Source: Spirochaetales bacterium
GTDB lineage: Bacteria; Spirochaetota; Spirochaetia; Sphaerochaetales; Sphaerochaetaceae
Assembly: GCA_017614375.1 (NCBI GenBank)
Contig: JAGABZ010000012.1
Coordinates: forward strand, 1 to 39,658
Reading direction: 5' to 3'
DNA length: 39,658 bases
Position numbers and translations under genes: made by a program. Shown here piece after piece: positions 2,740 to 31,999 of this stretch. How positions within the stretch are numbered: the first letter of the stretch is position 1; each line of letters begins with the position of its first letter. The notes below the pieces were generated by a model. That model worked only from the letters and a program-made list of their open reading frames with translations. It ran no database searches and was not told where the DNA came from.

Positions 2740-3756
2740 TCAGGGCAGGGATTCCAGTTTCAGGGTAAACAGCCGGTCCTGGTTGACCGACAGAGTCAGT
2801 TTCAGCCGTCCTATGACAAAGGCCCGGCTGATCTGCGCGCTGAGTTTTCCTCCTGCCCAGGTCACGCGGCAGCCGGGAGTTTCAAAGCTGACCGATATAT
2901 CCCTGTCCTCAAGCACGACGCTCATCGGCCCGGCGCTCAGGCTTTGCAGGCTGTGTCTGACCAGGCTTCCCTCACTCTCCAGCGTCAGGGTATATGAGTT
3001 TCGGATTTCCATGGCACCTAAGCGGATGCCGCGTGAGATTTCCAGTTGTACCCGCTGGGTCAGGGAATAATAGGCCGGCGGGCTGAAACGGCGCAGTGTC
3101 CATGAAAGCGAGCCGCCGCCGGGGGTCAGAGTAAGGCTGGTCGTTTCTATTTCGAAGCAGTCCGGAGTGTCAGTCTGTCCGCTACCGTAGAGAAAAGGTT
3201 CGGGGCCGGGGGAGGAGAGGCTGTGCCCGAATGTCCAAAGCACGGTTCCGATTCTGACTGCTATGGTCCGGCCCCAGCCGTTGATTGAACTGAATGCCCC
3301 GGCGGCGGACACGGTTGCAGTCAGTTCCCCGCAGCCTGCTTTCATTTCCGCCATGATGCCCCAGACCGGCCTGCCTTGGGGATTCTGCCGGCGGTCGGTG
3401 ATGAAAAGCTCATTCTCCGAAGCCGTCTGCAGGCTTTGGATTACGCAGGCTCCGAGGGTCAGTCCGCGTTTTGCGGCGGTAACGGCAAAGACCGCCGGCC
3501 CGAAGCGGCCGGAAGGCCCGATCGAGGAAACCAGGGTCAGGCTTCCGGTTGACAGCTGCACCCCGCAGATTGTCCCCGCGGTGCTGCGGTGCCGGTCCAA
3601 CAGGAAGGCCAGGGAAGGGGACAGGGGGATCGACCCGGCCAGAACCGAGTCTGATTGGAAATACAACTGCGGCCCCGCAATGAACATAAATGTCGGTCCG
3701 GCGGCGCATAGAAGGGCCGGGGCCAGAAGCAACGGCAGAAGCAGACGGGCTTTCAT
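2740..3756 (-). CDS. Exported protein of unknown function
   Basis: I do not recognise this 338-residue protein. It begins with a clear Sec-type signal peptide (MKARLLLPLLLAPALLCAAG, cleavage likely after CAA or AAG) and the rest is rich in Ser, Thr, Gly and alternating hydrophobic residues with repeated beta-strand-like stretches. This would suit a periplasmic or outer-membrane-associated beta protein. No lipobox and no catalytic motif are evident. It is convergent with the DUF1846 gene (stop codons directly adjacent) and divergent from acetate kinase. No good Shine-Dalgarno precedes the ATG; instead TATATA lies four bases upstream (3761-3766), which might be a -10 element giving a leaderless or nearly leaderless mRNA. 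Coding status rests on length, signal peptide and lack of any better reading of the strand. Confidence 0.7.
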   Translation of the reverse strand: MKARLLLPLLLAPALLCAAGPTFMFIAGPQLYFQSDSVLAGSIPLSPSLAFLLDRHRSTAGTICGVQLSTGSLTLVSSIGPSGRFGPAVFAVTAAKRGLTLGACVIQSLQTASENELFITDRRQNPQGRPVWGIMAEMKAGCGELTATVSAAGAFSSINGWGRTIAVRIGTVLWTFGHSLSSPGPEPFLYGSGQTDTPDCFEIETTSLTLTPGGGSLSWTLRRFSPPAYYSLTQRVQLEISRGIRLGAMEIRNSYTLTLESEGSLVRHSLQSLSAGPMSVVLEDRDISVSFETPGCRVTWAGGKLSAQISRAFVIGRLKLTLSVNQDRLFTLKLESLP

Positions 3757-3826: not shown

Positions 3827-3873
3827 GTTTTCCGGCCCGCGGGCCTTCTAATCAAAGATTTCGGGAGAGGAAC

Positions 3874-5205
3874 ATGGTCATTCTCACATTGAACTGCGGT
3901 AGTTCATCGGCAAAATACCAGGTCTACGACTGGGACGAAAAGGACGTTCTGGCCGTCGGCGTCGTCGAGCGCATCGGTTTGGAATACTCCACCGTCGAGC
4001 ACAAGGTCAGAGGCAAGGAGGAGTACAACGAGCGCTTCCTCTCCCCGACGCACAAAGAGGCCATCGAGAAGATCATCGGACTTATAAGCGACCCGGTGCT
4101 CGGATGTATCGACGATGTGTCGCAGATCGGAGCCGTCGGACACCGCGTGCTGCACGGCGGAGAGATTTTCAAGAAGTCTGCCCTGGTCGATGACGAGGTC
4201 GTCGAGAAGCTCAAGACCGTCATCCCCCTCGGACCGCTTCACATGCCGGCGAACATCATGGGAATCGAGGCAGCCCGAAAGGTAATGCCGAACGTCCCGC
4301 ACGCCATCGTCGTGGATACCGCCTGGCACCAGACGATGCCGCCCGAGGCCTTTATGTACGCCCTGCCTTACGAGTGGTACACCAAGTACAATGTCCGTCG
4401 CTACGGCTTCCACGGAACCAGCCACCTTTACTGCGCAAAGAGGGCCGCGGTCCTGCTGCACAAGCAAAACAAGGATACCAACGTAATCATCTGCCACATC
4501 GGAAACGGGGCTTCGACCTGCGCTGTGAAAAACGGCATCTGCGTCGACACTTCGATGGGACTTACCCCGCTTGAGGGCCTGGTGATGGGCTCCAGGAGCG
4601 GAGACATCGACCCGGCGATTGTTCCGTACATGATGAACAACCTCGGTTGCACGGCAAAGGAGATGGACACCTGGCTGAACAAAAAGAGCGGACTTATCGG
4701 TATCTGCGGGATGAGCGACAGGCGTGATGTCGAGAACGCCGCAGCCGAAGGCAACGAAAAGGCCAAACTCGGAATGATGATGGAATGCCACAGAATCCGA
4801 AAGTATATCGGTGCCTATGCCGCTGAACTGGGGAGAGTCGACGCGGTGGTGTTCACCGCCGGAGTCGGAGAGATGGGCCCGGCAATCAGGCAGGGCGCCT
4901 GCGAGGGCCTGGAAATCATGGGAATCAAGATTGACCCGCACAAGAACGCCATCTGCAAATGCCGCAACGGTGAGTTCGAGATTTCAGCCGATGATTCGCC
5001 GGTAAAGATCTACGTCATCCCGACCGACGAGGAACTGGTGATTACCGAGGACGCCTTCGCACTGATGAAAGGTGCCTACGACGTTCACACCAACTTCCAT
5101 TACTCGTTCGAGGATCCGTCGTACGTCAACAAGGGGCGTGAGCGGGGCCTGGTCGAGAACCTCAAGAAGAAGCCCGAACTTAAGTCAATACTTGTCCGTC
5201 CCTGA
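3874..5205 (+). CDS. ackA: Acetate kinase
   Basis: Cytoplasmic acetate kinase, interconverting acetyl phosphate plus ADP and acetate plus ATP, the substrate-level phosphorylation step of acetate fermentation. Signature 1 is at the N-terminus (LNCGSSSAKYQV) and signature 2 is RYGFHGTSH; the nucleotide-binding GNGAS and the catalytic GSRSGDIDP stretch are present. The start is ATG 3874, preceded by GGGAGAGG; an upstream in-frame start at 3775 would add 33 residues lacking family similarity and is rejected. At 443 residues it is about 40 longer than the E. coli enzyme (400), the excess being a C-terminal charged tail (SFEDPSYVNKGRERGLVEN and beyond). No phosphotransacetylase gene is adjacent. 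The next gene starts 11 bases downstream and is probably cotranscribed. Confidence 0.95.
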   Translation: MVILTLNCGSSSAKYQVYDWDEKDVLAVGVVERIGLEYSTVEHKVRGKEEYNERFLSPTHKEAIEKIIGLISDPVLGCIDDVSQIGAVGHRVLHGGEIFKKSALVDDEVVEKLKTVIPLGPLHMPANIMGIEAARKVMPNVPHAIVVDTAWHQTMPPEAFMYALPYEWYTKYNVRRYGFHGTSHLYCAKRAAVLLHKQNKDTNVIICHIGNGASTCAVKNGICVDTSMGLTPLEGLVMGSRSGDIDPAIVPYMMNNLGCTAKEMDTWLNKKSGLIGICGMSDRRDVENAAAEGNEKAKLGMMMECHRIRKYIGAYAAELGRVDAVVFTAGVGEMGPAIRQGACEGLEIMGIKIDPHKNAICKCRNGEFEISADDSPVKIYVIPTDEELVITEDAFALMKGAYDVHTNFHYSFEDPSYVNKGRERGLVENLKKKPELKSILVRP

Positions 5206-29347: not shown

Positions 29348-29956
29348 ATGAAAAAACGGTCTTTAGTGTCATTGCTTGTCAGTTTGTTGCCGTTCTCCCT
29401 CTTCGCAGCCGGAAATGAAGGAAGCACAGTTGCGAAAGCCGGTACAAATGCGGAAAAAACTTCCGGGTTAGGAAGTATAATCGGAGACACAATCTCCTCA
29501 ATCTGGCATAGTTTTATTGAACTCAATGTCAAAGCATGGGATTTCTGGAAGACTGCAGGGGTCCGGTTCTTCAGAGACAACTGGATTCCGGTAGCCGGTG
29601 GCATTGTGCTGGTAATTGGGATTATCATTCTGATCAAAGGAATCCTTTACAAGCCCAGATACATCCTCCAGGATGTTCCTGAAAACGCAATTCCTGTTCC
29701 CAAAAAGGTTAAAAAGGTTGTAAATGCGCAGCCGGAAAAGGTCCGCAGCGCCGATGATTCCCTTGTCGATTCGGTTAATCCCCTCAATCAGCCTCACCAT
29801 GAAGCTGATCTATATTATTCTTCTCCTTCTGATAGCCAGGAGGCCGGAATCAACATTTCTGACTATGAGGAATTGAATAAAAAGCCTGAAATTGACAAGG
29901 AAGACCTGGACTTCATCCGGAATCTTGCCAATGATTTCAATATGAAATCAAATTAA
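29348..29956 (+). CDS. Membrane protein of unknown function
   Basis: A 202-residue protein I do not recognise. It has an N-terminal signal-like segment (MKKRSLVSLLVSLLPFSLFAAG), a small polar region, then one strong transmembrane helix near residues 77-98 (WIPVAGGIVLVIGIIILIKGIL) preceded by an amphipathic Trp/Phe-rich stretch. The C-terminal 100 residues are polar, with Lys-rich (VPKKVKKVV) and then acidic sequence, probably cytoplasmic. AAAGGAGGG precedes the ATG by four bases, and an extended -10 promoter lies directly upstream. Base composition drifts toward A+T compared with valS, as in the ParA island that follows. No domain is evident. Confidence 0.75.
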   Translation: MKKRSLVSLLVSLLPFSLFAAGNEGSTVAKAGTNAEKTSGLGSIIGDTISSIWHSFIELNVKAWDFWKTAGVRFFRDNWIPVAGGIVLVIGIIILIKGILYKPRYILQDVPENAIPVPKKVKKVVNAQPEKVRSADDSLVDSVNPLNQPHHEADLYYSSPSDSQEAGINISDYEELNKKPEIDKEDLDFIRNLANDFNMKSN

Positions 29957-30042
29957 TTCAATTTACTTTCATTAAGAAAAGATATTACTATATAATCATT
30001 ATTATATAACTACGATATCGTTGCAATTATTTATGCCTATTT

Positions 30043-30146
30043 AAAACCTATAGAAAAGATGATATAAATATATTGCTATTATTTATCAAAGATATATAAA
30101 ACTAGGGTAAAAACTATAGAAAATACATCGCAAATATATTGTTACA
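30043..30146 (+). repeat. Two imperfect direct repeats upstream of parA
   Basis: Copy 1 (30043-30078) and copy 2 (30110-30146) align over about 35 bases: AAAAC(C)TATAGAAAA, 8-9 variable bases, A(T/A)ATATATTG(C/T)TA, starting 67 bases apart. AAAACTATAG recurs downstream of the cassette at 31375-31384 and, inside codons, at the 5' end of parA. Confidence 0.55.
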
Positions 30147-30165
30147 ATGAGATAATTCATTGTAA
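30142..30165. repeat. Perfect inverted repeat upstream of parA
   Basis: Nine-base arms TTACAATGA and TCATTGTAA around GATAAT, seen directly. It lies 57 bases before the -35 of parA. A dyad of this size in an AT-rich leader is a likely protein-binding site, the natural candidate ligand being the ribbon-helix-helix-like protein of the cassette. Confidence 0.65.
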
Positions 30166-30221
30166 AAGATATAAAAACCGTGTTTATTTGATTCCAAAAT
30201 TTCATCAAAACAAAAAAACAC

Positions 30222-30250
30222 TTGTATGTATTTCAAGTTATCACTATACT
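30222..30250 (+). promoter_or_regulatory. Promoter of the parA cassette
   Basis: TTGTAT (30222-30227) and TATACT (30245-30250) at 17-base spacing. The start of transcription would lie only about ten bases before the parA ATG, so the leader is very short. The -35 is enclosed in a five-base inverted repeat, ACTTG and CAAGT (30220-30238). Confidence 0.6.
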
Positions 30251-30266
30251 GTTTAATAGGTACAAT

Positions 30267-31028
30267 ATGGCTAAAACTATAGCTTTTCATCTTCAGAAAG
30301 GTGGCGTCGGAAAGACCACTATCTCCGGAACCCTTGCATGCCAGTCGGCTATGGATGGGTTCAAGACCATATTGATAGACGTCGACCCCCAGGGAAATGC
30401 TTCTTCCTGGTTCCTGAAGGATTCTCCCCGTTATGAATTTGCCGATGTGATACAGGGGAAATGCTATATAAAGGACGCGATTGTACCCGTTCCGACCGTT
30501 GAGAACCTTTTTATCCTTCCCACCTTCGGGATTAACGGCAGCCTGAAAAACTATTCCGAGACCAAACTGGCCGAGGAACCGTTTGTAATCCAGGATGCCG
30601 TGACCGAAATCAAGAAGGAGTTTCCACATATTATCCTCGACCTTTCTCCCGGTTTGGGGAGATTGGAGAGGTCTGCGCTGATTGCCAGCGACGAAGTAAT
30701 AACCCCGATGACTCCTGAGGTCTTCAGTCTTGACGGACTTGAGATTTTCATCGATGAGCTTGCCAAGATCAAAAAGAACTTCAGGGTCAATATCAAGCAT
30801 AAGAACATCATTATAAATTCTTACGATGAAAGAATCAGACAGCATCGTGAGATTTTCAGGGCCGCAAGCGAGGGAAATTTCAACATCTTCCGGATTCCCG
30901 TTGATCCGGTATTCAGAAAATCCCAGGAAGCTCAAAAGGCCCCTCAGATGTTCCGTCAGTCTGGTAGGGGACTTAAACCGAAGACGTTGGAAGCAATCAA
31001 CGAGTTGGAAAGCATTATCTGGAGATAG
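30267..31028 (+). CDS. ParA-family partition ATPase (small, type Ib-like)
   Basis: A 253-residue Walker-type ATPase of the ParA/MinD superfamily. The deviant Walker A motif KGGVGKTT is at residues 11-18 with the signature Lys before GGVGKT, the A' motif is ILIDVDPQGNASS, and the Walker B region is HIILDLSPG. There is no N-terminal DNA-binding extension, as in small plasmid ParA/ParF proteins, which leave DNA recognition to a partner. ATG 30267 is the start; a frame opening at 30222 would include the promoter and is rejected. One base separates its stop from the ATG of a ribbon-helix-helix-like protein. Plasmid or chromosome segregation is the family role, but some relatives position other cargo (chemoreceptors, carboxysomes), and none of those is nearby. 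Confidence 0.9.
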   Translation: MAKTIAFHLQKGGVGKTTISGTLACQSAMDGFKTILIDVDPQGNASSWFLKDSPRYEFADVIQGKCYIKDAIVPVPTVENLFILPTFGINGSLKNYSETKLAEEPFVIQDAVTEIKKEFPHIILDLSPGLGRLERSALIASDEVITPMTPEVFSLDGLEIFIDELAKIKKNFRVNIKHKNIIINSYDERIRQHREIFRAASEGNFNIFRIPVDPVFRKSQEAQKAPQMFRQSGRGLKPKTLEAINELESIIWR

Positions 31029-31029
31029 T

Positions 31030-31284
31030 ATGGCAATCAAGAAAGAAATCAAGGAAGACGAAATCATCGAAGAGACAAGCCTGAGTACAACAAAGGCAAA
31101 GGCCTTGTTCGGCACCAAGGGCAAAGGGAAGAATTCCGAGAACATGATTCTCACGACGTTCTCGATTGCTCCCTCGTTTAAAAAGGATCTTGAGGATCTG
31201 TTCGGGGAGATGGGGCTGCGCTGGGCTTCCGGAATCCGCTTCGCCCTGACAGAGTTCTATAAGAAGTACAGTTCCGGAAAATAA
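31030..31284 (+). CDS. Small probable ribbon-helix-helix DNA-binding partner of ParA
   Basis: An 84-residue protein. Residues 1-38 are charged and probably flexible (KEIKEDEIIEETSLSTTKAK); residues about 39-80 fit a ribbon-helix-helix fold: a strand MILTTFSI, helix SFKKDLEDLFGEMG and helix ASGIRFALTEFYKKY. This is the architecture of ParG/omega-type centromere-binding proteins: flexible N-terminal arm that stimulates the ATPase, and a C-terminal dimeric DNA-binding domain. The family assignment is from the pattern, not from a recognised sequence. GGAGA overlaps the parA stop and the ATG is one base after it, so the pair is co-translated. A terminator follows 29 bases later. Confidence 0.75.
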   Translation: MAIKKEIKEDEIIEETSLSTTKAKALFGTKGKGKNSENMILTTFSIAPSFKKDLEDLFGEMGLRWASGIRFALTEFYKKYSSGK

Positions 31285-31313
31285 ACCGGAGAATATATAT
31301 TCTATACATTTAT

Positions 31314-31347
31314 AAGAGTGGTTCCATATTGGAGCCACTCTTGTTTT
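31314..31347 (+). terminator. Terminator of the parA cassette
   Basis: AAGAGTGGTTCC and GGAGCCACTCTT pair over 12 bases (one G-U wobble) around ATATT, followed by GTTTTA. Confidence 0.8.
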
Positions 31348-31516
31348 ATGCAATAACAATAGAAAACACGTCTTAAAACTATAGGTAAAGCCTATGAGAA
31401 CTATATAAGAAACATTAAAAAGCAATTAAATAGCAACTGAATGTATAAAACCAATATAGTTACACCAAAAAATAATTAATAAATTCAATTAATACTATAT
31501 AAGATTTAAATTTTAG
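31348..31516. other. AT-rich region downstream of the parA cassette
   Basis: No gene is seen. It is as A+T-rich as the region before parA and contains another AAAACTATAG (31375-31384), whose end forms ATAGG-TAAAG-CCTAT, a short inverted repeat. It may be the other half of the partition site or an old insertion edge. Confidence 0.4.
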
Positions 31517-31999
31517 TTATTGAACTTTCTTGATGAAGATAGAGTTGAGACCGACGCCCAAAGAAAGGAGAGCAGTCACTATACATGCACTCATCAGTAT
31601 TCCCAGTGCAATAAAGAGCGCCGCCTTCTTTTTGTCCAATCCCAGTACCCAGGCGCCGAGAACTCCGGTCCATGTACCGGTAATCGGAAGCGGAATTCCG
31701 ACAAACAGCATCAAGCCGGCATAACCGAATCGGTTGAATTTTTCGCCGACCTTTTCCCTGGCCCTTCGGAGGGTCCGGTCAAACAGACGTTCGTACCACT
31801 TCATTTTCAACAACAGTCTGTTCAATGTCTCAAGGAATATCCAGCACAGGGGTATTACCAGCAGATTCGCTCCGACGGCAAGGATGAATGAGAGAAGCAG
31901 ACCGTTTCCGTTGAGGTAACAGTAGGGTAGTGCTCCCCGAAGTTCGGAAATCGGGATCAATGCGAGAATCAAGGTATTTATAAGAACCGAACTAGCCAC
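31517..31999 (-). CDS. Small multi-drug export protein family membrane protein (COG2426)
   Basis: A 160-residue membrane protein of the Sm_multidrug_ex family (PF06695, COG2426). Family hallmarks are PISELRGALPYC in the first loop and the GYAGLMLFVGIPLPITGTWTGVLGAWVLGL segment; four or so hydrophobic helices are visible. Despite the name, transport function is poorly established. GTG 31999 is the start, with AGAGG seven bases upstream inside the end of the DUF362 gene; it overlaps that gene's stop by one base. An ATG at 32041 lies upstream in frame but inside the neighbour's coding sequence and adds residues not typical of the family. Last gene of a minus-strand operon. Confidence 0.85.
   Translation of the reverse strand: MASSVLINTLILALIPISELRGALPYCYLNGNGLLLSFILAVGANLLVIPLCWIFLETLNRLLLKMKWYERLFDRTLRRAREKVGEKFNRFGYAGLMLFVGIPLPITGTWTGVLGAWVLGLDKKKAALFIALGILMSACIVTALLSLGVGLNSIFIKKVQ

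Follow-up and report, generated by a model that had tools for sequence, protein, structure and literature searches.

A plasmid-type ParA cassette with an RHH-like partner and phased 11-bp iterons, kept on Sphaerochaetaceae chromosomes as a probable partition locus

The cassette and its A+T-rich island

The window, by which we mean the whole stretch of 39,658 bp of DNA analysed here, carries a two-gene cassette in an A+T-rich island (29886..31572). Two A+T-rich stretches (29886-30316 and 31239-31572) flank the genes, with 24% GC in the 400 bp 5' of parA and 34% on the 3' side of the partner gene, versus approximately 57% for the window, so that the sharp A+T-rich stretch described in the first-pass annotation is borne out. 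The first gene, parA (30267..31028, forward strand), encodes a Walker-type partition ATPase of 253 amino acids. This is indicated by its motifs (KGGVGKTT, LIDVDPQGNAS and LDLSP), its homologues and its Pfam match (AAA_31, E=1.8e-33), and the protein has no N-terminal helix-turn-helix (HTH) domain. After a gap of one base from the parA stop follows the gene for an 84-residue ribbon-helix-helix (RHH)-like partner (31030..31284, forward strand), the proposed centromere-binding protein.

A promoter-like sequence, TTGTAT-17-TATACT (30222..30250, forward strand), precedes parA and is conserved in the family, with CTTGTA present 5' of parA in 23 of 39 loci. The earlier claim that the cassette has its own promoter is supported by this site, but not by a generic sigma-70 scan, which found nothing above chance and did not pick it. 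The terminator is borne out too: 3' of the partner gene lies a strong, intrinsic-terminator-like hairpin (31312..31344, forward strand; -23.4 kcal/mol, z=-6.3). Besides this hairpin no convincing palindrome was found at the cassette, where the first-pass annotation had listed one. Neither parB, dnaA nor a replication gene adjoins the cassette, as had been noted correctly, and no conserved cargo gene lies next to it. Between valS and the cassette, the window encodes a predicted secreted or membrane protein of 202 amino acids (29348-29956) without a family match, which has a relative (33%) at the equivalent place in locus L022.

The partner protein

On its own, the partner has no match in Pfam or to any other family. 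A profile of 38 homologues, however, matches CopG exactly over the beta-alpha-alpha stretch (E=0.04). The AlphaFold model shows the two C-terminal helices at high confidence but not the strand; in RHH proteins, the strand is completed by the dimer. Foldseek returned mostly RHH proteins, none of them significant by E-value, with MatP among the weak matches. Based on the profile and the predicted structure, the partner is most likely an RHH protein, as previously suggested, with good but not decisive support. Conservation is high across its C-terminal domain (ILTTFSIEPSFKKELE..F..MGLGWAAGIRFALKEF), and its N-terminus is variable apart from the two elements MA(L/I)K(K/R) and KAKxLF.

The partner matched neither the ParG nor the omega family in Pfam, NCBIfam and PDB sequences, and it had no match to SegB among PDB sequences at E≤1. 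The comparison with a ParF/ParG module, made in the first-pass annotation, is fair as a functional analogy, but membership by ParG sequence was not found.

Conservation in the Sphaerochaetaceae

The ParA was found with 59-84% identity in 29 of the 37 Sphaerochaetaceae genomes first searched, and the partner in 104 of 139 (a tally of 106 minus two weak, stop-containing matches). In the sampled loci, both genes form a tight operon within A+T-rich DNA, always with the partner downstream of parA. The deviant Walker A motif KGGVGKT is kept in 39 of 41 loci, and the remaining two are cut at contig ends. Furthermore, the flanks are common to several genera, in the overall order valS, cassette, DUF362/rsmB. 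The left flank is valS in one large branch, and the right flank has small-multidrug-export, DUF362 and rsmB-type genes. With dN/dS values of 0.02-0.04 for parA and 0.03-0.09 for the partner, the cassette is a vertically kept chromosomal locus under strong purifying selection in most genera of the family. It is also dispensable, because some genomes of the family lack it.

These results bear on the two options offered before, a remnant of an integrated plasmid or a chromosomal device. A functionless remnant would agree with the deviant composition of the A+T-rich island and with the plasmid-like ParA. However, the ORFs are intact, dN/dS is low in both genes (0.02-0.09), the cassette is present family-wide, and its housekeeping flanks are shared across genera. 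None of the marks of such a remnant was seen: plasmid genes for replication or mobility next to the cassette, a patchy occurrence, or decay. The remnant is disfavoured and, in our judgement, highly improbable; a chromosomal device fits best among the options offered.

Two genomes of genus g13 (G014 and G030) have no ParA match and retain an RHH gene of about 64-70 amino acids. In this N-terminally shortened gene (L160 4120-4314; L161 about 3850-4055), the RHH domain is present and the MALKK...KAKxLF part is absent. As far as sequences can tell, this fits the N-terminus of the partner being its ParA-facing part, and it also fits the RHH domain having some use without ParA.

Spirochaete plasmid relatives

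The best plasmid matches outside the family are ParA proteins of spirochaetes, encoded on pBHWA1 of Brachyspira hyodysenteriae (44% identity), on Treponema plasmids (35-38%) and on Borrelia lp17 (35%). Each of these plasmids has a small gene directly 3' of its ParA gene. A further relative (48%) comes from another spirochaete (locus L055), where an integrase and a Toprim-type gene are on the same contig. In the ParA tree, the cassette proteins form one group (support 96/88), which joins the pBHWA1, lp17 and L055 proteins (88/83). Soj is separate (100/100), and the Treponema plasmid ParAs are long branches of unsure placement. The partners of the cassette and of its plasmid relatives align in the RHH region (hhalign 76%). 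Because the nearest relatives outside the family are ParA pairs from spirochaete plasmids or mobile elements, the origin of the cassette looks plasmid-borne, in agreement with the first reading of a plasmid-style, small ParA without a DNA-binding domain.

The chromosomal Soj-ParB-parS system shares the ParA ATPase superfamily with the cassette, but has an HTH ParB and a gene location near dnaA, and the cassette has neither. Cassette-bearing genomes carry a separate Soj copy near dnaA, with an HTH ParB; ParB scored above the family cut-off in every genome checked, and lies near dnaA where both were mapped. A duplicate of Soj-ParB was ruled out as the identity of the cassette by the tree and by the different partner. 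The nine best ParA matches at class level were rejected as relatives, as they are ordinary Soj genes with adjoining ParB.

Two observations concern the plasmids themselves. On lp17 of Borreliella bavariensis (L138), the small gene after the PF32 ParA (3229-3504, the bbd22 position) encodes an RHH-like end similar to the family partner. By this similarity, it is a candidate for the lp17 ParB-equivalent, which had yet to be identified as of PMC9039534. On pBHWA1 (L135), several TAGTTTATTTTGTAACGTT-like direct repeats lie 5' of parA (about 2715-2880). They are unlike the iterons described below and may be iterons for replication, or the centromere of pBHWA1 itself.

Phased 11-bp iterons flanking the operon

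The direct repeats noted earlier at the cassette are real, and they are best described as degenerate 11-bp iterons. Within the A+T-rich flanks of the family, AAAA spacings peak near 11, 22, 32, 43, 54 and 64 bp, a period near 10.6 bp, with a peak/trough ratio of 3.2 (7.5 in the downstream flank). A motif fit from a seven-base seed converged on a self-repeating 11-bp unit, RAAAYNATATA. Cross-validation between two sets of loci, each time with the model from one set applied to the other, gave 69 forward matches versus 3.1 in shuffles, and 39 versus 2.4. Matches are about threefold more frequent in the forward direction, i.e. the orientation of the operon, and those on the reverse strand are also above shuffles (72 versus 13). 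Forward matches reach 8.1 and 3.9 per kb at the flanks, versus 0.7 per kb in other A+T-rich stretches. With leave-one-out training, 31 of 37 loci were significant (p<0.05); by the motif model, iterons are weak or absent in L040, L041, L042, L047 and L050.

At the window locus, nine forward matches were found versus 0.43 expected from shuffles (p=0.005, leave-one-out). The locus has an upstream array (29999..30186) and a downstream array of the same orientation (31351..31502), both on the forward strand, the latter with units about 22 bp apart at 31355, 31377 and 31399. The window arrays are more degenerate than those of Sphaerochaeta, and a pattern search of the window's own genome found no match to the strict two-unit pattern there. 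In genus g3, the matches reach up to a few kb around the cassette genes. Compared with a genome background of 0.035 matches per kb (1.2 Mb sampled), the density is in the best case about 100-fold higher, and the cassette of G004 has eight matches in about 2.2 kb. Outside cassettes, the 1.2 Mb sampled held no second cluster, only scattered pattern matches. Some of these sit on a repeated element of G004 with GTATCAAAATAATATAGATATGATATAATTA (C1, about 910480, 1010509, 1112680, 1252888, 1530981, 2034899 and 3063280), which is probably a multicopy insertion element.

A-tract phasing is general in bacterial DNA, and 11 A+T-rich stretches of two complete genomes, a small sample, gave peak/trough ratios of 1.98-2.52. 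The repeats could accordingly be seen as merely curved or generally phased A+T-rich DNA with no specific binding array. We regard this as unlikely, since 38 further A+T-rich stretches from these loci gave a ratio of 1.17, and the motif is locus-specific, with a defined consensus and orientation. What is new here are 11-bp iterons in helical phase, common to several genera and cross-validated. Their best reading, from sequence, is that the flanking arrays are a candidate centromere made of putative binding sites for the RHH protein.

Binding sites of this kind could also be plain operators. In such a case, the RHH protein would be mainly a transcription regulator, or the ParA would position a cargo other than DNA, and the locus would not be moved. 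RHH proteins are often repressors, the iterons abut the promoter, and the RHH domain is retained in genus g13 where no ParA was found; in other bacteria, orphan ParAs position protein clusters (PMC9178275). Nevertheless, no conserved cargo gene adjoins the cassette, its nearest relatives are plasmid pairs, and two-sided arrays, extending in some genomes up to a few kb, exceed the needs of an operator. We consider this alternative rather unlikely, though the most serious of the rivals.

The arrays bear also on plasmid incompatibility or exclusion, in which the chromosomal copy would destabilise incoming spirochaete plasmids with a related centromere. The plasmid origin of the cassette would suit this role, and an orphan ParA of a genomic island (ParI) interferes with the partition of IncP-7 plasmids (PMC9178275). 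On the other hand, the cassette has been inherited vertically for long with its own conserved arrays, and no array of the cassette type was recognised on the plasmids found: beside the ParA pairs of the plasmid relatives, no convincing 11-bp array was detected. To our knowledge, no plasmid of the family has such a centromere. A role in exclusion appears very unlikely.

Chromosomal position

Sphaerochaetaceae dif sites were located with the G024 site (C1:1487348) as seed. They resemble TATAATnTATATTCTGTnAACT, occur once in each complete genome that had a match, and share a nearly invariant core, TATTCTGTnAACT; matching sites lie in G126, G128, G144, G147, G148, G149, G018, G004 and G122. In G024, G004 and G122, the GC skew switches at dif. 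G023 has no dif match, and its terminus was taken from the skew switch alone. The genome of the window (G000), where the cassette lies on a 39.7-kb contig, has no dif match.

Where the terminus was mapped, in 11 genomes, its distance to the cassette is 164-415 kb. Measured to dif, this is 226-293 kb in eight genomes of genus g3, 165 kb in G018 and 415 kb in G122; in G023, the skew switch is about 164 kb away. The six genomes that we tabulated place it at 6.4-12.2% of the genome from the terminus and 36-40% from dnaA, transcribed from origin to terminus. Genus g3 has it on the right replichore, G122 and G023 on the left. The first-pass annotation had proposed to look at whether relatives hold the cassette at the same place or near the origin; its flanking genes are shared across genera, and in the six tabulated genomes it is far from dnaA. 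As a sign of function, the terminus-side position is suggestive only, because ±12.2% of the genome is about a quarter of the circle, and because the genomes share ancestry.

The distance from dnaA is relevant for another explanation, a control of replication or copy number rather than of segregation, as suggested for bbd21-bbd22 of lp17. Deletion of these genes changed the copy number of lp17 (PMC9039534), and the lp17 ParA belongs to the nearest plasmid group in our tree. With the cassette 36-40% of the genome away from dnaA and no replication gene nearby, a chromosomal locus offers such a control no obvious substrate, and we find it improbable.

A probable domesticated partition locus

We think it rather probable, from the sequences and by analogy with known systems, that the cassette is a domesticated partition locus, which partitions or positions its own chromosomal region. 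An ancestor of the Sphaerochaetaceae would have acquired a plasmid-type partition module on its chromosome, and the family would have retained it there as a second ParA system. In the mechanism that we infer, RHH dimers would load cooperatively onto the phased iterons at either side of the operon, and a partition complex would form on this centromere. Contact with ParA, and stimulation of its ATPase, would come from the N-terminus of the RHH protein, which is positively charged (MALKK/R...KAKxLF). Nucleoid-bound ParA-ATP would then pull or hold the complex by a diffusion-ratchet, so that the region is segregated or positioned. Binding of the RHH protein beside the promoter would in addition let the operon regulate itself. 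A more specific version, in which ParABS serves the origin and the plasmid-derived ParA-RHH-iteron machine is devoted to the terminus-side region, which it segregates or anchors, is possible but doubtful.

Plasmid systems provide the closest models. The ParF/ParG system of TP228 and the delta/omega system of pSM19035 likewise combine a small ParA without HTH, an adjoining gene for a partner (RHH in these systems, RHH-like in the cassette) and a repeat array, whose role as centromere is putative in the cassette. They differ in that the cassette is chromosomal and vertically inherited, and its partner is not recognisable as ParG or omega by sequence. On pSM19035, the RHH ParB works on repeat arrays, of which at least four contiguous repeats (heptads) are required (PMC9499535), whereas the units of the cassette are 11 bp long. 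The spirochaete plasmid pairs (pBHWA1, lp17 bbd21-bbd22 and L055) are the nearest in ParA sequence and have a small downstream partner with an RHH-like end, but reside on plasmids or mobile contigs and have no convincing 11-bp array. For lp17, bbd21-bbd22 affects plasmid copy number and a role in partition is unconfirmed (PMC9039534), which counts against the partition reading.

A chromosome can be served by a ParA-RHH pair, as archaeal SegAB illustrates (PMC9178275, PMC12284271). In the Sulfolobales, a chromosomal ParA-family ATPase and a small RHH protein with a disordered N-terminus are encoded together in a single cassette, and their binding sites are next to them (PMC9178275, PMC12284271); in our cassette the RHH fold is likely and the sites are putative. 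However, SegB sites are imperfect palindromes that are also scattered over the genome, and not phased 11-bp direct iterons at the cassette. Moreover, unlike SegAB hosts, the bacteria studied here have ParABS as well, and no homology to SegB was found. On the Borrelia chromosome, ParZ instead of ParB controls ParA (PMC9712426), which indicates that spirochaetes do swap centromere-binding partners.

Two further systems share some traits with the cassette. ParMRC of the plasmid R1 type also pairs an RHH protein with 11-bp direct repeats in helical phase, but its motor is an actin homologue and not a ParA ATPase. In E. coli, MatP is an RHH-containing DNA-binding protein tied to the terminus region, yet it has no ParA partner and acts through many dispersed matS sites.

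Implications

In the open-access literature, we found no report of such a system in Sphaerochaeta. The cassette offers a lead for those spirochaete plasmids whose ParB-equivalents are still being sought, for example lp17 of Borrelia (PMC9039534). If confirmed, the cassette would correspond in bacteria to SegAB in archaea, as a partition module from a plasmid that was made into a permanent part of the chromosome beside ParABS, and would show how partition modules become domesticated. It would further represent a second centromere, distant from oriC, that evolved naturally, and would allow direct tests of whether the terminus half of a bacterial chromosome is actively segregated.
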